Source: a virus. Taken from it: a DNA stretch of 21,372 nt. The notes beneath the pieces were generated by a model, which ran no database searches, was not told where the DNA came from, and saw nothing but the letters and a program-made list of their open reading frames with translations. Both the position numbers and the translations under genes were made by a program. Where the stretch lies: positions 1 to 21,372 of the IMG/VR virus record IMGVR_UViG_3300042558_003177; one strand, given 5' to 3'. This document shows positions 3,011-17,349 of the stretch, one piece after another; position 1 is the stretch's first letter, and the number at the start of each line of letters is the position of its first letter.

Positions 3011-3670
3011 GTGTCAAATAAGATTATAGTAGGTGTATGTGGATTTCAGGGTAGCGGGAAAGATACTGTTGCTGATTATCTAGTAAACGTACACGGATTC
3101 AGAAGAATAAGTTTCGCTGGTACATTAAAAGATGCTGTCTCTGCTATATTTGGCTGGGATCGTGAACTACTTGAGGGTAGAACCACAGAAAGTAGAGATT
3201 GGAGAGAGAAGGTAGATAAGTGGTGGGCAAATAAGCTCAATATGCCACATTTAACTCCACGTTGGGTTCTACAATATTGGGGAACAGAAGTGGCACGTAA
3301 AGCCTTTCACGACAATATTTGGATTCATAGCGTAGAATATAAACTTGCCACGATATCAGATAATGTTGTAATCTCAGATGTAAGATTTCCTAATGAAATA
3401 AAATCTATTAAAGATGCGGGTGGTATGGTTATCAGAACTCATCGTGGACCTGATCCAGAATGGTATCATGCAGCTGAAATAGTGAATAAGGGACCTACTA
3501 AAAACTTATCATGGGCAAGTAACAAATCATTTTTAGATAATTATAAAATTCATGTTAGTGAAACTTCTTGGATAGGTACTAATTTTGATGCTATTTTAGA
3601 TAATGATGGTACAATAGATGACTTATATAGTCAAATTAATCAACTGTTAAATCCCCTATTTTCCAAGTAG
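3011..3670 (+). CDS. 1: Deoxynucleoside monophosphate kinase (T4 gp1-like)
   Basis: A 219-residue P-loop kinase that in T4 phosphorylates dNMPs to dNDPs to feed phage DNA synthesis. The Walker A loop is GFQGSGKDT at residues 11-19, followed by ADYLVNVHGFRRISFAGTLK, the usual nucleoside-kinase continuation. The family-typical segment with WVLQYWGTEVARK lies near residues 94-106, and VVISDVRFPNE near 120-130 resembles the substrate/LID region of T4 gp1. The start is a GTG at 3011, supported by GGAG at 3002-3005. The gene has its own sigma70-type promoter, sits between late structural genes and overlaps the convergent gene at 3636 by 35 bases. T4 gp1 is 241 aa, so this is slightly short but complete. 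Confidence 0.88.
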   Translation: MSNKIIVGVCGFQGSGKDTVADYLVNVHGFRRISFAGTLKDAVSAIFGWDRELLEGRTTESRDWREKVDKWWANKLNMPHLTPRWVLQYWGTEVARKAFHDNIWIHSVEYKLATISDNVVISDVRFPNEIKSIKDAGGMVIRTHRGPDPEWYHAAEIVNKGPTKNLSWASNKSFLDNYKIHVSETSWIGTNFDAILDNDGTIDDLYSQINQLLNPLFSK

Positions 3671-3980
3671 TATTATTTCGTTTAACAACTTCAACACAGT
3701 TTAAACATATTGAACGTAAATTGATTAATTCACAATTATTTAAGTTACCATCAATATGATGAACTAGAATTTGATTAGTATATCTAGCTTTAAAATTACA
3801 AAGATCACAATGTGTTTTCTTTTTATAGCCGCGAATCTTCCAACGAGGATCAGCGGCTTTTAGTTGTTTATTTTTTCTGATACAACTTTCACAACGACTG
3901 CGATAATATCGTTTATCATTACGATAATAGGCGGCTGCTCTTGGTAATTTATTACAAACAGTACATAACGGTCTATTCAT
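3636..3980 (-). CDS. Small HNH-type zinc protein (possibly degenerate HNH endonuclease)
   Basis: A 114-residue protein with four CxxC pairs: C6/C9, C30/C33, C58/C61 and C92/C95. The second half has the HNH layout: CDLC, then LVHHIDGN with the catalytic-position His75, then N87 and CLNC. The usual last His (CxxCH) is Val96, so nuclease activity is uncertain; as far as I recall, related small phage proteins also lack it. Members may act as nicking or homing endonucleases or only as zinc-binding proteins. The gene is convergent with dNMP kinase and its last 35 bases are antisense to the kinase 3' end. ATAAATA on the minus strand (3987-3993) could serve as a late promoter. The start ATG at 3980 has no obvious Shine-Dalgarno. 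Confidence 0.75.
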   Translation of the reverse strand: MNRPLCTVCNKLPRAAAYYRNDKRYYRSRCESCIRKNKQLKAADPRWKIRGYKKKTHCDLCNFKARYTNQILVHHIDGNLNNCELINLRSICLNCVEVVKRNNTTWKIGDLTVD

Positions 3981-4130: not shown

Positions 4131-7100
4131 ATGGCTCTAGAATCGCCTGGTGTAGAAATCACCATTATTGACCAAAGTCAATACTTACCTGCACCACCAG
4201 CATCGGTTCCACTTATTATCATGGCAACCGCACAAAACAAACCTGATCCTTCTGGAACAGCAATTGCTCCCGGAACATTGGCAGCCAATGCTAATAAACT
4301 ATACAGAGTCACAAGTCAACGTGATTTGGTAAGTTTCTTTGGAACACCATTTTTCTATAAGACAACTGATGGAACAGCAATTCAAGGTTATGAACTAAAT
4401 GAATACGGTTTATTTGCCGCTTATTCAGTTCTTGGAACAAGTAATCTATGTTATGTAATTCGTGCCAATATTAACTTAGCTGATTATATTGGTCAAACTG
4501 GACGTCCAAGTGCACCTCCAGTAGATGGATCTTATTGGTTGAATACAACTACCAGTACATGGGGTATGTTTCAATTCAATTCGGCAACAGGAACATTCTC
4601 TGTAATTAGTCCAATCGTTATTGAAGATGTGGCTGACGTTGCTAGTTCTGATGGTCAACCACAACAATATATTGGAAATATTGGCGATTACGCTATGGTA
4701 TTGACAGAACAGTATGGATCTCCATCAAGTTATTATACTTATTGGTTTAAAAATTCAAATAATGAATGGGTTGTTCTTGGGGGTCACTCTTGGAAAAATA
4801 GTTGGCCAACAGTTCAGGGTACTGCTACTCCAGTAACAGTAACTGCGGGAAGTATTATAATCAATAGTAATACTGTAACAGTTCCAGTGAGTCCAAATAA
4901 CACAGTTGATGGTGTTGTTGGGGAAATTAACGGGGCCAATATTTTAGGTGTTACAGCTCTAAATATTGATGGAAGATTACAAATATTTCAAGATAATGGA
5001 TCAACTGTAATTATTGGAAGTGGAAGCACTTCGGCGACATTAACAAGTTTGGGAATTACTGCAAAGACATATTACTCTCCAAAACTTGTTTATGGTACCA
5101 ATGCTCAACAACCATTATGGAAGTCAACTGATAGTCAACCTCATCCAACAGGATCAGTTTGGGTTAAAACAAACTCTCCAAATTTAGGTACTAACATTGT
5201 TATTAGTAAATATAGCGCATCTACTGCTACATTCTCTGCTAAGAGTTGCCCACTATCTACTAGTGATTGGGTTATTAGTAATTCATTAGATTCTTCTGGT
5301 GGACAAGCAATTCCCGCTGGATCAATATACGCTCAGTATGATTTTGATGAAGAGACAAATTCATCACCATTACAATTGTTTGAACGTTCAAGTATTGGAG
5401 AAGCTGTATTTGTTGGAACAAATACCGCACCAACATTTGCAAATAATGCAACATTTGAAGTTTATGTTAGTACTCCAAGTTCAGCAAGTTTAAGTGTATC
5501 ATATACAGTTACAATGCCAAGTTCTGGAACTTTAGATGCATCAGATTTTGTAACCGCATGGACATCTGCCAATATTCCTTATACTACGGCTCAAGTTTCA
5601 TCAACTGGATCAATCGTATTAACTCATACTGAAGGTGGAGTTATTATTATGAATGATAATGGTGTAATTAGTCCTGCATCGGCAGTTACTGCAGCAGGAT
5701 TTACAATTAATACTGATGTTACTACTCCAACAGGTTGTGTAGGTGCTAAATGGGGACCATTTAAAACCATTAGTTATTCATACTTCCCAGCAATCAATGT
5801 GTCTAGTTCTGGTTCCGGTGCTTCATTGTATGTAACTACATTTGGATATATTCCTACATTTACAATAGCTGGTGGTGGTTCTTCTTATGCTGTTGGTGAT
5901 TTATTGGAAATTGACGGTGGTGGTTATTTGATTGATCCATATACTGTTCAAGTTACTACAGTTGGCGGGGGAGGTAATATAACAGGTGTACAATGGTATG
6001 CAAATTTTGCAACACCACAATATTCAGTACAGTTAAGTAATTGGAGAATTTTCAATTATACACCAAATCTAATCGCACCAGTAACAATTCCAACTGATGG
6101 AACTCCATGGTATTATAGCGTTGTCAATCAAGTTGATATTATGACTAACGTTGGTGGAGTATGGACTGGTTATAAAAATATAAGTTATGCATCTGATGGT
6201 TTACCACAAGCATCTGGTACTCCTAGTACTGATCCAGCTGGTCCTATCATTTCAGCAACTGCACCAACAACTCAAAGCGATAACAGTGTATTAGTATATG
6301 GTGATTTGTGGATTGATTCTAATGATTTAGAAAATTATCCAGTAATCAGTCGTTGGCAGAATGTTAATGGCGAAGATCAATGGGTTTTAATTGACAATAC
6401 AGATCAGACAACAGAAAATGGTATTTTATTCCAAGATGCTCGTTGGGCAACTAATGGAACTACAAATCCAATTGATGATCCGATTCCAACAATTGTTAGT
6501 TTATTAACAAGTAACTATTTAGATATTGATGCTCCTGATTCTCAATTGTATCCACAAGGTACATTGTTGTTCAATACTCGTCGTAGTGGTTATAACATTA
6601 AAGAGTTTATGGTTAACTACTTTAATGGAACAACATTCCCAGACGAAGCATTGCCACAAGAAACAAATGCATGGGTTAGCGTAAGTGGTTTACAGACAAA
6701 TGGTGCCCCATATATGGGTCGTAGTGCTCAACGTAATATGATTGTTAAAGCTCTTAAGACAACAATTGATACTTCAACACAACTTCGTGATGAAGATACA
6801 TTCTTTAACTTAATGGCAACACCTCAATATCCAGAGTTACAACCTAACATGGTAACACTAAATAATGATCGCGGTCAAACTGCATACATTATTGGTGATA
6901 CACCATTACGTTTAGTAGCAAATGGTCAATCAATCTTTGACTGGACAAACAATACAGCTGGTGCATCAAGTACTGGTGAACAAGGTCTTGTAACACGTAA
7001 TACATATCTTGGTATCTATTATCCAAGTGGTATTACTAATGACTTAACTGGAACTCAAGTTGTTGTTCCACCAAGTCATATGATATTACGTACAATGATT

Positions 7101-7670
7101 TATAACGATACAGTTGCTTATCCATGGTTTGCTCCAGCCGGTCAACGTCGCGGTATTATTGATAACGCTACTAATATTGGTTACATTGATCCAACTACAG
7201 GTGAATTTGTAGCGGATAAGAATAACGTTGGTCTTCGTGATATGGAATATAGAAACTTTATTAATCCAATCACATCATTTACTAACATTGGATTACTAAA
7301 CTATGGTAACAAAAATAGTTTTGACAGTTCATCAGCTTTGGATAGAACCAACGTTGCTAGACTAGTTAACTATCTACGTGATCGTTTAGCAAAAGCTGTT
7401 AGTCCATTCTTGTTTGAACCAAATGATAATTTAACTCGTACACAAGTACGTGCAATTTGTCAAACATTGTTAGCTGATATATTAGCTAAACGTGGTTTAT
7501 ATGATTATCTAGTAGTATGTGATACATCAAATAACACACCAGCTAGAATTGACAGAAATGAGCTTTGGATTGATATAGCGATTGAACCAGTGAAAGCAGT
7601 TGAATTTATCTATATCCCAATCCGTATTCTCAATACTGGCGAAATCGCTGGTTTGGTAACGAACGGGTAA
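4131..7670 (+). CDS. 18: Tail sheath protein gp18-like, very large (1179 aa)
   Basis: The contractile sheath subunit. Residues 1 to about 120 begin MALESPGVEITIIDQSQYLP, continue with PPASVPLIIMATAQNKP and include the DLVSFFGTPFF segment, as in T4-like sheaths. Residues from about 816 to 1179 are the conserved C-terminal part that forms the inner contractile layer. T4 gp18 is 659 aa, and most of the excess lies between about 124 and 800. That insert is rich in Ser, Thr and Gly, shows beta-type patterns, and carries three recurrent stretches with a small-residue/W signature: GSYWLN near 133, GSVWVK near 343, GDLWID near 723. It also has segments resembling adhesin or hook-type modules (VDGVVGEINGANILGVTA near 262; YAVGDLLEIDGGG near 585). 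Such insertions in T4 gp18 face outward. AGGAG at 4120-4124 supports the start, and a terminator follows. Confidence 0.9.
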   Translation: MALESPGVEITIIDQSQYLPAPPASVPLIIMATAQNKPDPSGTAIAPGTLAANANKLYRVTSQRDLVSFFGTPFFYKTTDGTAIQGYELNEYGLFAAYSVLGTSNLCYVIRANINLADYIGQTGRPSAPPVDGSYWLNTTTSTWGMFQFNSATGTFSVISPIVIEDVADVASSDGQPQQYIGNIGDYAMVLTEQYGSPSSYYTYWFKNSNNEWVVLGGHSWKNSWPTVQGTATPVTVTAGSIIINSNTVTVPVSPNNTVDGVVGEINGANILGVTALNIDGRLQIFQDNGSTVIIGSGSTSATLTSLGITAKTYYSPKLVYGTNAQQPLWKSTDSQPHPTGSVWVKTNSPNLGTNIVISKYSASTATFSAKSCPLSTSDWVISNSLDSSGGQAIPAGSIYAQYDFDEETNSSPLQLFERSSIGEAVFVGTNTAPTFANNATFEVYVSTPSSASLSVSYTVTMPSSGTLDASDFVTAWTSANIPYTTAQVSSTGSIVLTHTEGGVIIMNDNGVISPASAVTAAGFTINTDVTTPTGCVGAKWGPFKTISYSYFPAINVSSSGSGASLYVTTFGYIPTFTIAGGGSSYAVGDLLEIDGGGYLIDPYTVQVTTVGGGGNITGVQWYANFATPQYSVQLSNWRIFNYTPNLIAPVTIPTDGTPWYYSVVNQVDIMTNVGGVWTGYKNISYASDGLPQASGTPSTDPAGPIISATAPTTQSDNSVLVYGDLWIDSNDLENYPVISRWQNVNGEDQWVLIDNTDQTTENGILFQDARWATNGTTNPIDDPIPTIVSLLTSNYLDIDAPDSQLYPQGTLLFNTRRSGYNIKEFMVNYFNGTTFPDEALPQETNAWVSVSGLQTNGAPYMGRSAQRNMIVKALKTTIDTSTQLRDEDTFFNLMATPQYPELQPNMVTLNNDRGQTAYIIGDTPLRLVANGQSIFDWTNNTAGASSTGEQGLVTRNTYLGIYYPSGITNDLTGTQVVVPPSHMILRTMIYNDTVAYPWFAPAGQRRGIIDNATNIGYIDPTTGEFVADKNNVGLRDMEYRNFINPITSFTNIGLLNYGNKNSFDSSSALDRTNVARLVNYLRDRLAKAVSPFLFEPNDNLTRTQVRAICQTLLADILAKRGLYDYLVVCDTSNNTPARIDRNELWIDIAIEPVKAVEFIYIPIRILNTGEIAGLVTNG

Positions 7671-7732: not shown

Positions 7733-8383
7733 ATGGCATTTAGTTCAATTTCGAGAATGACAGTTCCAGCACCTGGATCAGATGGGTCATTGAATGCACA
7801 AGGCTTGTTAATGCCAAAATTATCATATAGATTTAGAATCTTATTTGATAATTTCGGCGTCAGTCAGCCAACAACAGAAATAACAAAACAAGTAGTTGAC
7901 TTTACTCGTCCAAACGTATCGTTTGGTGAAATACCAATTGAAATTTATAACAGTAGATATTATCTAGCTGGTAAACCAACTTGGGAACCAGTTACTGTTA
8001 ACATTCGTGATGACGCTAGTGGTGAAGTTGCTAAATTAGTTGGAGAACAGATTCAGAAACAATTTGATTTCAGTGAACAAGCTTCGGCTGCAGCTGGCAT
8101 TGATTATAAGTTTCAGTTACGTTGTGACATCTTAGACGGTGGTAATGGAGCATTTGCCCCAACTGTATTAGAATGTTGGGAAATGTACGGTTGTTACATT
8201 GTTAGTGCAAATTATAATACAGTAGCATATAGTACAAATGATCCACTTATGATTGGTTTGTCAATTCGTTTTGATAATGCAGTACAATCACCAACAGAAA
8301 ATGCACCAAGTATTCGTGGTATTGGTACAAATATTGGTCGTACTATTGGAAACAGTGTAAGTGGTATTGGTCAAACAGGTTAA
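7733..8383 (+). CDS. 19: Tail tube protein gp19-like
   Basis: A 216-residue tube subunit; stacked hexamers form the rigid inner tube through which DNA passes. Family signs are the N-terminal segment with LSYRFRILFDNFGVSQP (about residues 30-46), VVDFTRPNVSFGEIPIEIYN (near 60-80) and TWEPVTVNIRDDASGEV (near 86-102), plus the LECWEMYGCYIVSANYNTVAYS stretch near 145-165. T4 gp19 is 163 aa; the extra length is a short N-terminal extension and a Gly/Ser/Asn-rich tail (PSIRGIGTNIGRTIGNSVSG). Its place directly after the sheath gene matches T4 order (18, 19). The start has a good AGGAG at 7-base spacing. Confidence 0.88.
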   Translation: MAFSSISRMTVPAPGSDGSLNAQGLLMPKLSYRFRILFDNFGVSQPTTEITKQVVDFTRPNVSFGEIPIEIYNSRYYLAGKPTWEPVTVNIRDDASGEVAKLVGEQIQKQFDFSEQASAAAGIDYKFQLRCDILDGGNGAFAPTVLECWEMYGCYIVSANYNTVAYSTNDPLMIGLSIRFDNAVQSPTENAPSIRGIGTNIGRTIGNSVSGIGQTG

Positions 8384-8393
8384 TTAAAATACT

Positions 8394-9551
8394 ATGGCTG
8401 GAATGTTTCAAGAGTTTCTTCAAGGTGCCGAGAGTGGATTCTTCGGCACTGATTATTTGCGTGATTATAAACATGCAAGTAAAACTTTCAGACCAAATGC
8501 TTATGCAAATTCACCTAAGTTTAAATGGTTATTTCATGTATACTTTGATATCAACAAAACTCTAATTACACAACAACCTAATATTTTTCCAGATGATGCT
8601 ACGCCAGGATTACTAGTAAAAAGCATTTCATTGCCTAAATTTTCTATTAGTTTAGCTGAAATGAATCAATATAATCGTAGACGTTATGTTCAAACTAAAT
8701 TAACTTATGATCCAATTCAAGTGGCATTTCATGATGATAATGCTGGTGCTATTAGATCAATGTGGTATAATTATTTTAGTTATTACTATAATGATCCAAA
8801 TAATCCAATTGGAGCCACTGCAAGTCAAGCATCTGCCATGCTAAATAAAAGAAATCAATATACTCCGGATATTAGTAGTGATGTAAACTGGGGATATCGT
8901 GGAGAACCGGCAAATACATCAACTTCAAGTGCCATAGGAATTGCAAAAGCTCCATTCTTTAAATCAATAAAAATTTATGGATTTAATCAACATAATTTTG
9001 CACTGTATGAATTGATTAATCCAATCATTGAAAAATTTGATCATGATACATATGATTATTATCAAACTAGTGGAATCATGGAAAATCGCATGACTATTAA
9101 ATATGAAACTGTCAAGTATCAACAGGGTGCATTAAATGGTCAAAATCCAAGTGCTGTAGTTGCTGGGTTTGGATCTGAGGCAAATTATGATAGAAATCTT
9201 AGTCCAATTGCAAGACCTGGAAGTAATAGAACTATTCTTGGTCAGGGTGGACTTCTTGATGCTGGTGTTGGTGTATTAGAAGATTTGAAAAATGGTAACA
9301 TTCTGGGTGCCATTCAGAAGGGTGGTACATTAGCCAATACATTTAAAAACCCACAATCTATATTTCAAACTGCTAAAGCTGAACTTATTAGCGGACTATT
9401 TAACGCTACTCAAAACCCACAAACTGCCAGAAATATTTTCAATTTCCCAAGTACAAGTTCAACTAACGGCCCAACCGCTCAGTCAGTATCTAATCAAAAC
9501 TTTAATAATCCAAATAATCAAGAATTTATTGATCAAGGACAGTTTCTTTGA
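8394..9551 (+). CDS. Tail tube-fold structural protein, possibly baseplate-tube initiator (gp54-like)
   Basis: A 385-residue virion protein starting 10 bases after the tube gene, with no Shine-Dalgarno, so probably translationally coupled. It carries tube-like features: KFKWLFHVYFDINKTL near residues 44-58, LLVKSISLPKFSISLAEMNQ near 72-92 and YNRRRYVQTKLTYDPIQVAF near 94-113. These parallel the 'structured strand, then F/P motif, then DNF/HDD' pattern of gp19 and of the related tube initiator gp54. The HDDNAGAIRSMWYNYFSYYY stretch (near 114-133) is characteristic of homologues I remember from marine T4-like phages. The last ~60 residues are Asn/Gln/Ser-rich and probably disordered. gp54 of T4 is 320 aa. 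A second tube paralogue is the alternative; the exact role is inferred. Confidence 0.65.
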   Translation: MAGMFQEFLQGAESGFFGTDYLRDYKHASKTFRPNAYANSPKFKWLFHVYFDINKTLITQQPNIFPDDATPGLLVKSISLPKFSISLAEMNQYNRRRYVQTKLTYDPIQVAFHDDNAGAIRSMWYNYFSYYYNDPNNPIGATASQASAMLNKRNQYTPDISSDVNWGYRGEPANTSTSSAIGIAKAPFFKSIKIYGFNQHNFALYELINPIIEKFDHDTYDYYQTSGIMENRMTIKYETVKYQQGALNGQNPSAVVAGFGSEANYDRNLSPIARPGSNRTILGQGGLLDAGVGVLEDLKNGNILGAIQKGGTLANTFKNPQSIFQTAKAELISGLFNATQNPQTARNIFNFPSTSSTNGPTAQSVSNQNFNNPNNQEFIDQGQFL

Positions 9552-10957: not shown

Positions 10958-11665
10958 ATGACTATTTATTATCTATACATCAAGACTCACGAAAATACTG
11001 GTCTTAAATACCTAGGTCAAACATCAAAAAAAGACCCGTTCAAATATAAAGGGTCAGGAGTTGATTGGAAACTTCATCTCAAAAATCACGGATCAAATCA
11101 TCATACTGAAATACTATTAGAAACCACTAATAAAGAAGAACGTAATTGGTGGGGAAGATATTACAGCAAATTATACAACATTATCAATGCACAAGATGAT
11201 TTTGGCAATAAAATATGGGCAAACAAAATTCCTGAAACTGGAGGTGGTGGAGGCTCTAGGTTTGGTCCAAATCCAAAAATTAGTGAGTTCATGAAAACCC
11301 ATCATTCAACAATGTCAGATATTAAAAAGAAAGAATGGATTGACAATATATCAAAATCTAAGATTGGAAAGAATCAGCCAAATATTAGTCTATCTAAACT
11401 AGGAAAAAAACAACCAATCAGAAGTAAATTAATGAAAGGAAAACAATCTCCGTGGCTGATTGGACGAAGAAATGGAGAAACGTATACTAATAATAACCCA
11501 AATAGTAAATATAATATTATATATACTTGGGAAAACATATTAACTGGAGAAATCATTAAAATGAAACGACATGAATTTCAGAAAAAATTTAATATTCTTC
11601 CATCTAGCGTGTCAAATTTAATATCAAAACTTAGCAATAGTGCTGGTGGATGGAAGATAGTATAA
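10958..11665 (+). CDS. GIY-YIG homing-type endonuclease
   Basis: A 235-residue free-standing endonuclease of the T4 Seg type. The catalytic domain is at the N-terminus: YYLY at residues 4-7 and GLKYLGQT at 15-22 are the GIY and YIG strands, followed by DPFKYKGSG and WKLHLKNHG, and an EERNWWGRYY helix (near 59-68) with the conserved Glu. The middle (about 125-170) has repeated Lys/Ser/Gly/Pro motifs (SKSKIGKNQPN, SKLGKKQP, MKGKQSP) typical of NUMOD3 DNA-binding modules. The C-terminus with MKRHEFQKKFNILPSSVSNL looks like a helix-turn-helix (NUMOD1-like) unit. The frame is intact. AAGGA at 10944-10948 supports the start. It sits directly after small terminase and is probably a mobile intruder that cuts and copies itself into related genomes. 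Confidence 0.85.
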   Translation: MTIYYLYIKTHENTGLKYLGQTSKKDPFKYKGSGVDWKLHLKNHGSNHHTEILLETTNKEERNWWGRYYSKLYNIINAQDDFGNKIWANKIPETGGGGGSRFGPNPKISEFMKTHHSTMSDIKKKEWIDNISKSKIGKNQPNISLSKLGKKQPIRSKLMKGKQSPWLIGRRNGETYTNNNPNSKYNIIYTWENILTGEIIKMKRHEFQKKFNILPSSVSNLISKLSNSAGGWKIV

Positions 11666-11709: not shown

Positions 11710-12327
11710 ATGAAACTTCATTCATTTCGTAAGTATTTGGCAGAGAGCGTCAGAACTTATCACTATAAAATTAAAATCGCTGGTCAACCACCTAAAAATT
11801 GGTTGGATATGTTTTGCTATAATCTATCAAAATTTGACCCAGTTAAAATTAGTGATCCAAAAACTACTCCTATTCAGAAAGATCCATATGGATTCCCAGA
11901 CTTAGAAAATCAAGCAATTACAATGATTGATGTTGAATTTAGATATCCAGCCATTGAACCAATGATTAAACAAGTTGCTCGGTTATTAAATTATGATGAA
12001 AATTTAGTTAGAATGGTTCAAGCTGATTATGATGATAGTATTAATCATGAAGCAGAACAATATGCAAATCAAGCTTCACATAGTCCAGTTCTAACTCATG
12101 AAGAATTAGAAGACAATGGTAAAGAAGCTAATAAAGCATATGGTGAACAATATATGTCTAATATATTCAAAGATTACAAGGCTGATAAAATTAAAATGGC
12201 TGGTCCACAAACCAAGCCGGCTGTAGACTCACGTAAATTTCCAGGAAATCAAAAGAGTCCTATGACAAAAGTACAAAGACAGCCTAAGCCACAAACCGGT
12301 GCCAGTCAAGGCACAAAATTCAAATAA
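11710..12327 (+). CDS. Virion protein with internal-protein-like N-terminus, 205 aa
   Basis: No assigned function. The N-terminus, MKLHSFRKYLAES, resembles the propeptides of T4 internal head proteins IPI-IPIII (MKTYQEFIAEA), which direct the protein into the prohead and are removed by protease gp21 after an (L/I)-x-E site. Here the site would be L10-A11-E12 before S13. After it come a beta-type segment (YHYKIKIAG, VEFRYP) and a TPIQKDPYGFPDL stretch, a combination I associate with structural proteins of marine T4-like phages. The last ~50 residues are Lys/Pro/Gln-rich and probably disordered. Packaging in the head is inferred from the N-terminus; a general virion role is better supported. 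The following gene begins 22 bases later without a promoter, so the two are probably co-transcribed. Confidence 0.65.
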   Translation: MKLHSFRKYLAESVRTYHYKIKIAGQPPKNWLDMFCYNLSKFDPVKISDPKTTPIQKDPYGFPDLENQAITMIDVEFRYPAIEPMIKQVARLLNYDENLVRMVQADYDDSINHEAEQYANQASHSPVLTHEELEDNGKEANKAYGEQYMSNIFKDYKADKIKMAGPQTKPAVDSRKFPGNQKSPMTKVQRQPKPQTGASQGTKFK

Positions 12328-12348: not shown

Positions 12349-15300
12349 ATGGATATCAAATCACTATGGCAAAAATTAGATCAGATCGCTGAAGCAACTG
12401 ATCCTATCCCAGTTACAAAAGGACATTTTGCCGATAAAAAAGGTCAACCTAAGCCTTATCCAGCATTAAAAAACACTTCAACAGGTAAAGTTCGCGCTCA
12501 CCCTAATGATCCCGACCCGGGTGTCACAGAAGGCATGCTGACCCACAGAGATTTTGAGAAACCGGACGACGCGGACGTCATGAAGATGGCCAAGCTGGCA
12601 GCTCGGGGATTATTGACTTATGCTGCCAAGACCAAAATGAATCCAGCCAACTTGCTTAAAAAAGACTACTATGCTCTGGCGGCAATGTTAGAAAAAGTAA
12701 ATCCAAGTTTGTATGCCACCATCGACGGTCAGTTGAGCGATAATGATTATAATTGGCTTTATTTCAAAGCCGCTGATTTGGCCGCCAATGCGGCGGCCAA
12801 ACAAGGTGTGTCGGAAGCCGAACAGACTATGAGTCGCGCTGCCAAAGGTAATGAAAAGTATGGTAAAGAAGGCATGCAGGCACTGGCCAAAGCAGGTCGT
12901 GAAGGTAAAGATTTAGATCCAGTTAGAGCTAAGTATAACAAGTATGATGAAGCGGTTGCGGAAGACGCTCCAGAATTAAAAAATGTCAAACACTTTGCTA
13001 AGCCTGGTGGTTATGGTCGTAAAATTGATAAAGATGATGAAAGTGGTGATGCATTTCATAGTTCAGATATTGATGATACTGATGATGCACCAGCAGCAAA
13101 AGCACCAGTAAAACGTGGTCGTGGACGTCCAATGAAGGGCGGAGATAGCGAAACTGGTATTACTAAGAAGTATGATACTGATACACTTTCCAGTTGGATC
13201 ATTGGTAACAAACCAAAAAATATTGATAAGATCGGTAAAGTATCTCATGTAAACAGATTGAAAGAATACATGGAAATGGTTGAGCGTAAGACCATTGTAG
13301 AAGGTTATATTGCTGAAGGTAGAATGAGTGAATTGTCTATGATTGTTGATGATATTATTGATGGTCGTTTAGACATTTATGACATTATATCAGGTAAATT
13401 TATTCCAACTAGTGATTTAGAAGATTTTGTTCAACAAACATTGATAAAATCATATGAAGAAACGGCACGCGATCATAATTTAGAATTAGATGATAATGTT
13501 GATGAAATTATTGGAATAATGTATAATGATATTCATGACATTATGTCTAACGCTTTAAATAAAGGTATTGATGAGCAAGCTCAACCAATGCCAGCACAAG
13601 CCGCAGCACAACAAGCAGGACAACAAGCGGGGCAACAAACTCAACAACAACTACCAGTTCTTGCTGGAGGTAAACCTGTTGGTTCAGCACCAACCGCTCA
13701 AGCTGTTCAAGCTGCCACTCCAATGGTAAATGATATTCTTAATAAAAAACAAGCTCTTGGAAAAATGGGAGTTTCAGTAACGGCACTAGAAGAATCATTG
13801 GCTGATACAATGAATAGATTTTCTTCAATACTAAATGAATCAAAAAGTAGTCGTACTGTAGGTCGTCGTACTTTATCAGAAAGTAAAACACCACAGTTAG
13901 TTTTAGAAGGTACATTAGAAGAAATTATTGCCGTTCATCCACATGAGCACAAAATGTATCAACAAGGATGGGGACTTGATCCACATTTATATGATGCATT
14001 GTGTGATCATTATCATAAAGAGGGTCGTATTCCTCGTAGTGTTTGGCATGGTTCATCAGAAGATTTACGTAAATGTGTAGAAGAATGTTACATGCAAGAT
14101 ACACAATCTTTAATGGGTGAAGAAGTTAAAGAAGATGAGCAACTTAATGAGTTCTTGCCTTTGGCTGGAGCAATTGCAGGTAGAGCACTTGTTGGAGGTG
14201 CTGGGGCTGCAGGAAGAGTCGCGGGCAGCTTACTAGGTAGAGCAGCGGGCAACGCAGCAGAAGACTTTTTTGCTGGAGATGAAGAAGATGATCTGGAAGA
14301 AGGCGTTAACTATACAGATGAGTTACGTGATAAAATAGAATGGTTAATGACAACTTATCATATGCGTAGCGGAGAAGCCGAAGAAACTGCATATTATGAT
14401 GATAACCCAGAAACATGGAAAGGCAGTCCATGGGAAAATGAATACGGTATGAAAGAAGGATTTGTTGGTGGTGCATTGGGCGGTATTGCGGGTGCAGCAT
14501 TAACAAAATCTCCAAGTGGTGCCATTGCTGGTGCAAAATTAGGTAGTGGTATTCAAGATAGTTTTGGTAAAAAAAATCCATTTGAAAATGAAGAAATGGA
14601 TATTAGAAGACATGCAATGAACAGACTCATTGATGAATTAGATGAATCTACTTACGGGACTCTAAAAAAAGATATGAGTGAATCTAAAAAACCAAGTGCT
14701 GGTATGACAAAAGATGAAAAATCTTCTCTTGTAAAGAAAGCAAAATCAGGAAAAGATATTGGTAAACCTGGTAAAGGATTTGACAAATTAGCCAAGAAAG
14801 CTGGTGAGAAATATGGTAGTACTGAAAAAGGTAAGAAAGTAGCCGCAGCCGCAATGTGGAAAAATGCAGCTCCAACTAATGAAGGTGAAGAACAATTAGA
14901 TGAGTTGTCACCCGAAACTCTCAAATCATATGTCAAGAAAGCTGCTCCTGAAGTTGCACACAGAGCTCGTGTTGACTCTCAAATAGCATCGGACGACGAA
15001 CTCACAATGGCAAAAACCGGAAAGAAAACCGCGCGTGTAGTAGGTTCTGAAAACAGAACAAAAAGACGAGTGGCTGGGATCAAACAAGCTGTTGATAAGA
15101 TGACAAACGAAGCAACAGACGATGACTACGATCAAGCCGCAATTCTCGGGGGCAAACGTGGTCGTGATGCTCGTGACAATCCTTCAAAAGCAGTAGCAGC
15201 AGCTAAACGTAGTCCAGCCGCTCAAGATGCACGTGCTAAACTTGACAAAGTACGTCAGTCTGAAATCAAAGTAAAAGAATCAGCAAAACCAGACTTCTTA

Positions 15301-17349
15301 GACTTAGACAAAGACGGCAACAAAAAAGAGTCAATGAAGAAAGCATCTGCAGACAAGAAGAAAGTCAAAGAAAATGTTAATGTAGCTCAGATGCATGCAG
15401 GTACATTTAGACCAGGCGATAAAGCAATGGCTAGAGATGGATCACAAGTTACAATCGCTAAAGTAGAAGGTAATGGAGATGTATGGATCAAGTCATGGCA
15501 AGATAACAAACCACAACGTGTTGATGCTCGTACTCTAAAGTCAGTTGGATCTTCAGGTAAAGCACTTGCTGAATCATATGACTTTTCTGAGTGGGACAAT
15601 CAATTGTCATCATTATTGAAACCAACTCCAAAACAAGCAGTTTCTGAATCTGTTAAAATTAAGAAACGAATGATCACTGAAAGTTCTAACGAATTGTCTA
15701 CTATGTTACAATTTGCTGGTCTTAAGAATGTTCAACAAGTAATGGAAGAGTTTAATGCTAGTATATATGCTGATGATAGTGAGTCAACTTCTTCAACAGA
15801 CGGTGCAGATAATCCTCCTCAATTAGCTATGCCTACAGGTATGGGTATGAGTCAACAGAAAGAAGAAGACGATGAGTCATCAGTTGTAGAACCAATGATG
15901 AGTGATGAAGTTATTGGTGGTTTGGCAAAAGGTGATAAAGAATCAACTCAATCTGATAACGATCATTTAAGTTTCTTCAAGAAAATGCTCAGTCATGGAC
16001 AAAGTGAAGTAAAAACTGAAAAACCAAAATCTGAATCGGGTGAACAAAGTGGAATTCCAGCATCTACTAGTCAAAGTCCAGTAAGTGGAGAAACAAGTGA
16101 TAAGCCAGTTACAGAAGCATCACCAGTTACTTCAATTATAAACAAATTTAAGCCTAAGATAACTCCAGGTGGTATTCCTCCACAACCAGTAGCATCACCA
16201 GTTACTTCAAACAAATTTAAGACTATATCTAAGATAACTCCAGGTGGTATTCCTCCACAACCCGCAGCAACTACTAGTACTATTCCAACATCAAGAACTA
16301 GTACTATTCCAACATCAAGTACTCTTGATCAAGATCCACGAGCCATTGAAAAAAATGCCGCTGAAAAAATTGATGCATTAAATTCAAATTGGGGAAACAA
16401 TTTTTCATCATCTACTCCTAGTACGTCATCTTCAACACAACAAGCCGCTGACATGGCAGATTTCAAAGCTCTAACTGGTGTTGGTGAACCAGGAATGACT
16501 CCCGCTGATACAATGACAGTTGGATCAAAGTATGATGCGGCAGACATGGCAGATTTCAAAGCTCATCATGGTGTTGGTGAACCAGGAATGACTCCCGCTG
16601 ATACAATGAAAAAATTATCCACTCCAGAAATCAATGGTCCAAATGGTACTGGTGGTTCATTAGAAGAAGACGACATGGAAGAAGGTAATGAGTTTACTGG
16701 AGCTTTAGCCAAAGCCAGATTAAACGGAGTTGAACAAGGAGAAACCATGAAAGTTGGTGGTAAAACTTATCCAGTTAAAGTTAAGGAAGACTCGGTTGTT
16801 GCTGGTAATGGAGACAATGAAGAAGAACAAAGTGAAGTTAGTAGTGATGCAACTCGTGACGCTGCACTAGCACAAAACTATACCGCAGAAGATGAACATC
16901 AAGGTATGTCCAGCGACAGTATTATTGGTGACATTTTAGCTAAATTAACTCAACTAGTTGGATCAGAACAAGGTCAACCAGCAATGAGTGCCGAACCACC
17001 TGTAATGGTAGATGTACAAACATATACTGATGGACAAGATTATGCTGATGAAGAATCACAAGATGAAGAACAATGTGATCAGTGTCAATCATGTGGTGGC
17101 GCAATGTATGAAAATCATCAATGTATGGAAAATTTAAACGAGTGGGCCAATAGTCCTACTGGTGAAAGTGATGATGAACAGTTTCAAACTGATATGGATT
17201 TCATGACTAAAGTAATTAGTGGTGGATTAAATAATCAGAAACAAGATCAGACAACTTTACCAAGTACACGAGTAGTTACTAGAGATGAAAGTAAAGATGT
17301 TTCTAATACTATGGGTGCAATGTTACGTAAATTGTCAGGGATTAACTAA
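12349..17349 (+). CDS. Giant modular low-complexity virion protein, 1666 aa; possible processed head-internal protein
   Basis: No single function is recognisable. The start MDIKSLWQKLDQIAEATD again has a gp21-type site (I13-A14-E15). Distinct modules follow: a helical block near 60-150; KYGKEGMQALAKAGREGKDL near 170-190; an AT-hook-like KRGRGRPMK at 255-263; a charged helical region 280-400; Gln/Ala-rich 405-450; a His-rich HPHEHKMYQQGW block near 528-585; two glycine-zipper hydrophobic stretches (about 604-640 and 704-732); a basic KSGKDIGKPGKGFDKLAKKA block near 800; an EF-hand-like D985-x-D987-x-D989-G loop; an SH3/KOW-like stretch 1015-1068; acidic linkers with tandem repeats around 1257-1420; and a Cys cluster C1576, C1579, C1582, C1592. 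AAGGA precedes the start and a terminator follows. Bases 12481-12900 are about 49% GC by hand count, far above the surroundings. Confidence 0.75.
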   Translation: MDIKSLWQKLDQIAEATDPIPVTKGHFADKKGQPKPYPALKNTSTGKVRAHPNDPDPGVTEGMLTHRDFEKPDDADVMKMAKLAARGLLTYAAKTKMNPANLLKKDYYALAAMLEKVNPSLYATIDGQLSDNDYNWLYFKAADLAANAAAKQGVSEAEQTMSRAAKGNEKYGKEGMQALAKAGREGKDLDPVRAKYNKYDEAVAEDAPELKNVKHFAKPGGYGRKIDKDDESGDAFHSSDIDDTDDAPAAKAPVKRGRGRPMKGGDSETGITKKYDTDTLSSWIIGNKPKNIDKIGKVSHVNRLKEYMEMVERKTIVEGYIAEGRMSELSMIVDDIIDGRLDIYDIISGKFIPTSDLEDFVQQTLIKSYEETARDHNLELDDNVDEIIGIMYNDIHDIMSNALNKGIDEQAQPMPAQAAAQQAGQQAGQQTQQQLPVLAGGKPVGSAPTAQAVQAATPMVNDILNKKQALGKMGVSVTALEESLADTMNRFSSILNESKSSRTVGRRTLSESKTPQLVLEGTLEEIIAVHPHEHKMYQQGWGLDPHLYDALCDHYHKEGRIPRSVWHGSSEDLRKCVEECYMQDTQSLMGEEVKEDEQLNEFLPLAGAIAGRALVGGAGAAGRVAGSLLGRAAGNAAEDFFAGDEEDDLEEGVNYTDELRDKIEWLMTTYHMRSGEAEETAYYDDNPETWKGSPWENEYGMKEGFVGGALGGIAGAALTKSPSGAIAGAKLGSGIQDSFGKKNPFENEEMDIRRHAMNRLIDELDESTYGTLKKDMSESKKPSAGMTKDEKSSLVKKAKSGKDIGKPGKGFDKLAKKAGEKYGSTEKGKKVAAAAMWKNAAPTNEGEEQLDELSPETLKSYVKKAAPEVAHRARVDSQIASDDELTMAKTGKKTARVVGSENRTKRRVAGIKQAVDKMTNEATDDDYDQAAILGGKRGRDARDNPSKAVAAAKRSPAAQDARAKLDKVRQSEIKVKESAKPDFLDLDKDGNKKESMKKASADKKKVKENVNVAQMHAGTFRPGDKAMARDGSQVTIAKVEGNGDVWIKSWQDNKPQRVDARTLKSVGSSGKALAESYDFSEWDNQLSSLLKPTPKQAVSESVKIKKRMITESSNELSTMLQFAGLKNVQQVMEEFNASIYADDSESTSSTDGADNPPQLAMPTGMGMSQQKEEDDESSVVEPMMSDEVIGGLAKGDKESTQSDNDHLSFFKKMLSHGQSEVKTEKPKSESGEQSGIPASTSQSPVSGETSDKPVTEASPVTSIINKFKPKITPGGIPPQPVASPVTSNKFKTISKITPGGIPPQPAATTSTIPTSRTSTIPTSSTLDQDPRAIEKNAAEKIDALNSNWGNNFSSSTPSTSSSTQQAADMADFKALTGVGEPGMTPADTMTVGSKYDAADMADFKAHHGVGEPGMTPADTMKKLSTPEINGPNGTGGSLEEDDMEEGNEFTGALAKARLNGVEQGETMKVGGKTYPVKVKEDSVVAGNGDNEEEQSEVSSDATRDAALAQNYTAEDEHQGMSSDSIIGDILAKLTQLVGSEQGQPAMSAEPPVMVDVQTYTDGQDYADEESQDEEQCDQCQSCGGAMYENHQCMENLNEWANSPTGESDDEQFQTDMDFMTKVISGGLNNQKQDQTTLPSTRVVTRDESKDVSNTMGAMLRKLSGIN
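16117..16262 (+). repeat. In-frame duplication, 2 x 71 bases, period 75
   Basis: Units 16117-16187 and 16192-16262 begin GCATCACCAGTTACTTCAA and end in the same 32 bases, starting AAGATAACTCCAGG. They encode SPVTS...NKFK and KITPGGIPPQP twice. The middle is slightly rearranged. The period is a multiple of three, so the frame is kept. Confidence 0.85.
16273..16319 (+). repeat. Tandem 24-base repeat (TSTIPTS)
   Basis: Two 23-base identical stretches, 16273-16295 and 16297-16319, period 24, encoding TSTIPTSR and TSTIPTSS inside the giant protein. Confidence 0.85.
16450..16609 (+). repeat. In-frame duplication, 2 x 67 bases, period 93
   Basis: Units 16450-16516 and 16543-16609 are identical except for a 5-6-base change, and encode ADMADFKA(LT/HH)GVGEPGM then TPADTM twice. 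The near-identity, including third codon positions, indicates a recent duplication. Confidence 0.88.

Follow-up and report, generated by a model that had tools for sequence, protein, structure and literature searches.

Can one phage gene encode a precursor that is cut inside the assembling head into several different peptides? The question is raised by an open reading frame (ORF) of 1666 amino acids (aa) at positions 12349-17349 (+), with the N-terminus MDIKSLWQKLDQIAEA, in a 21,372-base virus record from a T4-like phage. This record, a fragment of about 21 kb, is called the window below. A first-pass annotation had read the product as a possible prohead-processed internal polyprotein, a reading that is partly supported here at the level of sequence. 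We give a probability of roughly two-thirds to the following form of it: the gene product would be targeted to the capsid as a precursor, the prohead protease would divide it in trans into cassettes, and some of these would stay with the DNA.

Gene neighborhood and a family defined by position

The whole 1666-aa protein had no match above any cut-off in Pfam, PHROGs, NCBIfam, or PDB sequences. A tblastn search of phage records matched a single stretch, a module of 51 aa that is shared with two phage records of 735 kb. Upstream of the ORF, the gene order is tail sheath, two tail tube genes, head closure, a short gene, a homing-endonuclease-like ORF, and the gene of a phrog_14802 "virion structural protein"; a baseplate-type gene comes after the ORF. 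The adjacent upstream gene is the following (a vertical bar marks a putative cut here and below):

11710-12327 (+): phrog_14802 virion structural protein, 205 aa, leader MKLHSFRKYLAE|S; neighbor in 122 loci

In most relatives, the leader of the phrog_14802 protein reads YL(A/T/V/M)E|S. Some clades have Ala or other residues instead of this Glu, as does the Pseudomonas jumbo phage PA5oct (MKSFRDYYDASKRKY), so this leader may not be cut everywhere.

Further observations concern the surrounding genes. The tail sheath (4131-7670, +; 1179 aa) is far longer than usual T4-type sheaths, and its conserved Pfam C-terminal domain sits at its end. The tail-tube-like genes (7733-9551, +; 216 and 385 aa) stand in tandem, as they do in PA5oct. 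The homing-endonuclease-like ORF (10958-11665, +) is of the GIY-YIG type and lies between a terminase-small-like gene and the 205-aa gene; the relatives L002 and L003 are without it at the corresponding place. A small HNH-endonuclease-like ORF with Cys pairs (3636-3980, -) follows the dNMP kinase gene.

Searching viral contigs with the 205-aa neighbor yielded 303 candidates, from which 80 loci were kept. Further loci were found via the tube protein and the 1666-aa ORF itself, bringing the total with the neighbor to 122. In almost every complete locus, the phrog_14802 gene is followed by a gene for a single protein of 200-1666 aa. We gathered 113 such downstream proteins, 66 of them non-redundant; one (L093) was unlike a member, leaving about 65 family proteins. 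The carriers are uncultivated T4-like phages with the gene directly after the phrog_14802 structural gene. This is a mosaic multidomain protein beside virion genes, the layout known from polyvalent proteins. PA5oct has, between its phrog_14802 gene and the terminase, a 498-aa "structural protein" (gp281, EST35_0203) with the note ESI-MS/MS. It shares slot and virion annotation with the family, but an HMM built from short members did not match it and no sequence homology was detectable; PA5oct is thus counted as synteny only.

Leader, cleavage-type motif, and module edges

T4 gp21 cleaves after L/I-x-E and thereby strips leaders off internal proteins (PMC9026906; PMC9958956). The 1666-aa protein begins MDIKSLWQKLDQIAE|A, and its first part divides as follows:

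12349-12393 (+): proposed capsid-targeting propeptide MDIKSLWQKLDQIAE, aa 1-15, cut after E15; identical in aa and nucleotides in L002 and L003
12394-12987 (+): aa 16-213, module region wholly different between close relatives in the alignment with L002 and L003

The first 15 codons are identical in the three genes. The L002 DNA diverges right from the codon after E15; in L003, a few more codons agree and the sequence is then unrelated. According to the alignment, the three proteins are unrelated or patchily alignable until about aa 200-214. A capsid-targeting propeptide predicts this pattern: a leader that is conserved, a change behind L/I-x-E, and exchangeable sequence from there on. The likeness to T4 propeptides claimed in the first-pass annotation is borne out. 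Most family members start with M(D/N/E)(F/I/L/M)(K/R)xx(L/I)xxxxxQ(L/I)xE|(A/S/G), and the P3 residue of this site is I or L in most of them, as in T4; about a dozen members have no recognizable N-terminal site. The family thus shows the T4-type internal-protein trait of an independently conserved leader of 10-20 residues that ends in L/I-x-E before a small residue.

All (L/I)-x-E sites listed in that annotation exist in the ORF; the total is 18, with E306, E318, E409, E763, and E1598 added. Its estimate that the number of sites is about that expected by chance stood for bare (L/I)xE (18 vs 13.4 in shuffled sequences, z 1.7) but not once the residue after the cut was included. We counted 10 (L/I)xE|[SAG] sites vs 3.5 in shuffles (z 3.7) and 19 [LIVMF]xE|[SAG] sites vs 7.4 (z 4.8). 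Real module-edge sites with V or M at P3 had been overlooked earlier (E520, E703, E778, E977, E1100, and E1445). In the 65 non-redundant family proteins, [LIVMF]-x-E|[SAG] occurred 606 times vs 212 in shuffles (2.9-fold), whereas there was no enrichment in 336 long control ORFs from these contigs (386 vs 402). A position scan of the family placed the hydrophobic preference at exactly P3 (606 vs 213; z 28.8, descriptive like the other z values because family counts are not independent), with far smaller values elsewhere. At P1, Glu was the one strongly enriched residue and Asp was depleted (0.45-fold). At P1', S, G, and A were enriched, as were C and W, probably owing to recurring modules. Many family sites carry V or M at P3, unlike the L/I of T4 gp21; the gp22 proteins of relatives do likewise. 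The PA5oct slot protein has 5 motif sites vs 2.3 expected.

Left edges of blocks shared between proteins fell exactly at a motif Glu 111 times vs 15 expected; since related proteins are counted repeatedly in this statistic, the counts were redone on merged module starts. After merging of similar starts, 14.3 of 170 were at a motif Glu vs 2.1 expected, and control ORFs gave no signal (0.9 vs 0.7). Nor was there a signal at left block edges for E|[SAG] without the hydrophobic P3 (16 vs 18 expected). Right edges, the module ends, were only weakly tied to the motif. We distinguished 26 module starts, many of them found behind several unrelated upstream sequences that keep just the hydrophobic P3 and the Glu. 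In close relatives, conserved stretches break at the motif Glu, for example, at QSL(M/I)(G/S)E| and at LAE|SYDFSEW vs VKE|SYDFSEW. Between proteins 35-75% identical, retention in aligned pairs was 78% for the motif Glu and 53% for the remaining Glu residues. Thus, the placement of sites at module edges and their conservation among homologues, both proposed earlier, were found, and the absence of (L/I)xE conservation at these edges, which had been named as an argument against the polyprotein, did not come true. Judged by sequence, the family has what a prohead-protease polyprotein should have, several conserved protease-type sites between modules. Its members look like strings of small interchangeable modules, the joints of which match the signal of the head-maturation protease.

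Modules, fused genes, and the protease of relatives

Beyond aa 213, the following modules and domains were delimited in the 1666-aa protein:

13108-13137 (+): AT-hook-like motif VKRGRGRPMKG, RGRP at aa 258-261; RGRP recurs in the family, with Pfam AT_hook in members
13318-13575 (+): predicted helical domain, aa 324-409, flanked by IAE|G (E323) and IDE|Q (E409); AF2
13909-14118 (+): HEHK/Cys helical domain, aa 521-590, between VLE|G (E520) and LMGE| (E590); 12 homologous domains, AF2
14152-14283 (+): glycine-zipper-like module, aa 602-645, after LNE|F; seen in the sequence, region replaced in L002 and L003
14302-14457 (+): module, aa 652-703, between LEE|G and MKE|G; found only in the 1666-aa copy
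14683-14880 (+): basic SKKPSAGMT...AAAAMWKN module, aa 779-844, after MSE|S; recurs in other members
15280-15372 (+): EF-like module SAKPDFLDLDKDGNKKE, aa 978-1008, after VKE|S; same start behind several unrelated upstream sequences
15373-15573 (+): KOW-like module, aa 1009-1075, ending in LAE|; retained in L002; L003 has another sequence here, as far as the shared E|SYDFSEW
15574-15681 (+): SYDFSEWDNQL module, aa 1076-1111, with VSE|S and ITE|S at its end; starts at E|S behind two different upstream sequences
17074-17124 (+): zinc-ribbon-like Cys cluster, C1576, C1579, C1582, and C1592; seen in the sequence, Zn_Ribbon_1 in one member
17143-17346 (+): conserved C-terminal region, aa 1599-1666, after LNE|, family consensus ..FMTKxISGGLNxxKxDQTTLP....LSGIN

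The glycine zipper, basic, EF-like, and KOW-like stretches and the Cys cluster described earlier are visible in the sequence, and none of them reaches a Pfam cut-off in the 1666-aa protein. Family members contain glycine zippers, zinc ribbons, and modules that resemble EF-hands, DUF3008 over its full length, and, in one case, RMF; most of them score under the Pfam cut-offs. RGRP occurs in 32 of the 66 family proteins and in 0 of 385 control ORFs. In place of the insert of aa 652-703, L002 and L003 read ...DD(I/M)E-EGF. The RMF-like (ribosome modulation factor) module lies inside another family protein (L141:10651-13587), bounded by MKE|S and VIE|A.

AlphaFold modeling of aa 296-860 with a shallow alignment predicted two confident helical domains, at about aa 326-400 and 523-585. 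The first has pLDDT values of 75-83 over the block of about aa 326-400, and its bounding sites fall outside. The second, the HEHK domain, has a pLDDT of 77 with low-confidence flanks; upstream of it, homologues keep mainly P3 and Glu, and V/I-x-E|G/S persists there despite changed surrounding residues. Every motif site checked in the modeled part lies in a block with pLDDT < 60, outside the confident domains. The fold of the HEHK domain had no match in the PDB. In BFVD, its best matches were two uncharacterized proteins of uncultured phages (E 0.02 and 0.17), which are likely family members.

A natural gene fusion was seen in the family. One locus (L101) has two genes, of 551 and then 822 aa, the second starting with MDFRDILGQLHGIIDE|GKMADIKGKKHTG; in place of this pair, L111 and L157 have a single ORF (1370 and 1525 aa, respectively). 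The fused ORFs hold internally ...VEST(T)MN(I/L)DMRQM(L/I)ALLDE|A(A/T)KMADIKGKKHTG. The presence of this leader with LLDE|A inside both ORFs shows that the second leader and its site persist internally. GGAG precedes an internal ATG at the L157/L111 fusion junction, and internal initiation could be another way to separate the two products.

The search for a gp21-type protease suggested by the first-pass annotation succeeded in part. A gp21-type S77 protease was found above the cut-off in 5 of the 12 relatives' records searched, including PA5oct; no such gene was seen in the 21-kb fragment, and the closest longer relative (G004, possibly itself a fragment) showed just a short ORF that resembles S77 weakly and in part, with no gp23 seen there. 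In the relatives, gp21 adjoins gp23 and two genes that we take to be gp22 and gp67-like from their position and the T4 gene order. The gp22 proteins of the five gp21-encoding relatives contain 60 motif sites vs 12 expected. The first 60 aa of their gp23 contain 13 vs 1.9, including LSE|S and LAE|S close to where gp23 of T4 is known to be cut. Their gp67-like proteins showed no enrichment (11 vs 9.8).

Possible processing, alternatives, and related systems

In the reading that we favor, the 15-residue leader would direct a head-internal precursor to the core of the assembling prohead. A gp21-type prohead protease would cut after Glu in (L/I/V/M)-x-E|(S/A/G). It would free the leader first and would next separate small modules (helical, AT-hook, glycine-zipper, zinc-ribbon-like, EF-like, and basic) at the many disordered linkers that join them. 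At least some of the released pieces would remain in the head beside the DNA and probably enter the host, where the modules may act as effectors. The array would evolve by gain, loss, and swap of cassettes, the first residues of which would be those right after the cut site, so that any new cassette would emerge with a proper N-terminus. A broader proposal, which we put forward tentatively and at a little under even odds, is that swapping exactly at prohead-protease sites takes place in many T4-like phages, making the head a loader of small modules (RMF-like, DUF3008-like, AT-hook, zinc-ribbon, and glycine-zipper) that would be set free by a protease acting in trans and delivered together with the DNA.

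The strongest rival is an extra scaffold or core protein, because gp22 carries the same motif more densely (60 vs 12). Like T4 gp22, gp67, and gp68, such a protein would be packed into the core of the prohead and degraded there through cuts at numerous LxE sites; its fragments would exit, and its modules would be spacers rather than cargo. T4 core proteins are indeed cut to small peptides that mostly exit (PMC9026906; PMC9958956), and a large share of the modeled part of our protein is of low confidence. Against this stand the separate gp22 and gp67-like genes that relatives own beside gp21 and gp23, the compact conserved domains with invariant Cys/His, the exchange of modules like cargo, and the annotation of the same-slot gene of PA5oct as a virion protein; we consider the scaffold unlikely. 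Identity with the gp22 scaffold itself was rejected, the ORF lying outside the gp20-gp21-gp23 cluster, in which relatives have their own gp22 and gp67-like genes.

Cleavage of the leader alone would leave one long or a few large virion polypeptides, with the internal motifs as remnants of leaders or linkers from cassette insertion. In T4, an N-terminal propeptide is removed from Alt and the internal proteins (PMC9026906), and the mostly I or L residue at P3 of the N-terminal site fits this, but remnants would decay, whereas the internal motif Glu is conserved above other Glu residues among divergent homologues, and P3 and P1 survive where the surroundings changed. We regard such limited cleavage as improbable, clearly more so than the scaffold. 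The least probable alternative, to which we give hardly any weight, is an unprocessed modular structural protein of head or neck/tail in which E|S/G/A would serve for linking or docking or would mark a favored site of recombination. The surrounding tail tube, head closure, terminase-type, and baseplate-type genes would suit it, but an uncut structural protein is made unlikely by the exactness of the P3/P1 signal, in which P3 is position-exact and Glu, not Asp, is required; moreover, expected gp21 substrates of relatives share the motif, and other ORFs of the same contigs have no edge signal. A tape measure was rejected, the 1666-aa protein having no PHROG match. One short member matched phrog_167, probably via its glycine-zipper stretch.

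The processed precursor that we favor resembles T4 IPI, IPII, IPIII, and Alt in the short leader ending in L/I-x-E before a small residue, the late head-gene context, and the gp21 homologue in relatives. These T4 proteins, however, are small or single-function and lose an N-terminal peptide, whereas the longest member of the family, at 1666 aa, carries about 19 motif sites and is a mosaic of modules. T4 gp22, gp67, and gp68 also have many gp21-type sites per protein; unlike them, the family shows cassette exchange and folded Cys/His domains, and its gene is outside the gp20-gp23 cluster. To our knowledge, polyproteins are not a known trait of bacterial viruses. If the product is a true polyprotein, a whole set of different packaged peptides would come from one late gene, and hundreds of uncharacterized phage proteins could be divided objectively, by means of the protease motif, into modules that are candidates for injection. 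The long-standing question of what large phages inject along with their DNA would then become testable via peptides that start after the predicted Glu residues.

In phiKZ and SPN3US, inner-head proteins (for example, SPN3US gp53 and gp54) are cut by the prohead protease after x-x-E, and identical short N-termini occur on diverged proteins, as in our family; the extra cuts lie in propeptides, and the portions of that report drawn on here describe no chain of exchangeable cassettes (PMC5694885). Polyvalent proteins are multidomain, mosaic, late-gene products proposed to deliver several activities together (Iyer et al. 2017, PMC5512222), and their layout, like that of P1 DarA and DdrB, resembles the family. 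For polyvalent proteins, splitting by a metallopeptidase embedded in the protein has been proposed, whereas in the family the prohead protease would act in trans on a motif between modules; no Pfam peptidase match was found in 54 members at E <= 0.01. With a proposed T4-internal-like function and a polyvalent-like layout but no embedded peptidase, the family is counted as a member of neither group.

Stand-alone copies of ten modules were few in the collected contigs, the clearest being in L188/L189 and in a protein of the 735-kb phage. In the latter, which is otherwise unrelated, the SKKPSAGMT module follows LIIE|. L188 (G010) is a structural protein with a phrog_14154-like C-terminus that exceeds 600 aa through the same module types, with joints at LKE|S and VSE|G; its counterparts in other relatives have about 245 aa. 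In the 735-kb phage record (L008), several neighboring proteins have short leaders, such as MIKTFDEFINES and MIKKFKLFEADE, that recall T4 capsid-targeting sequences.
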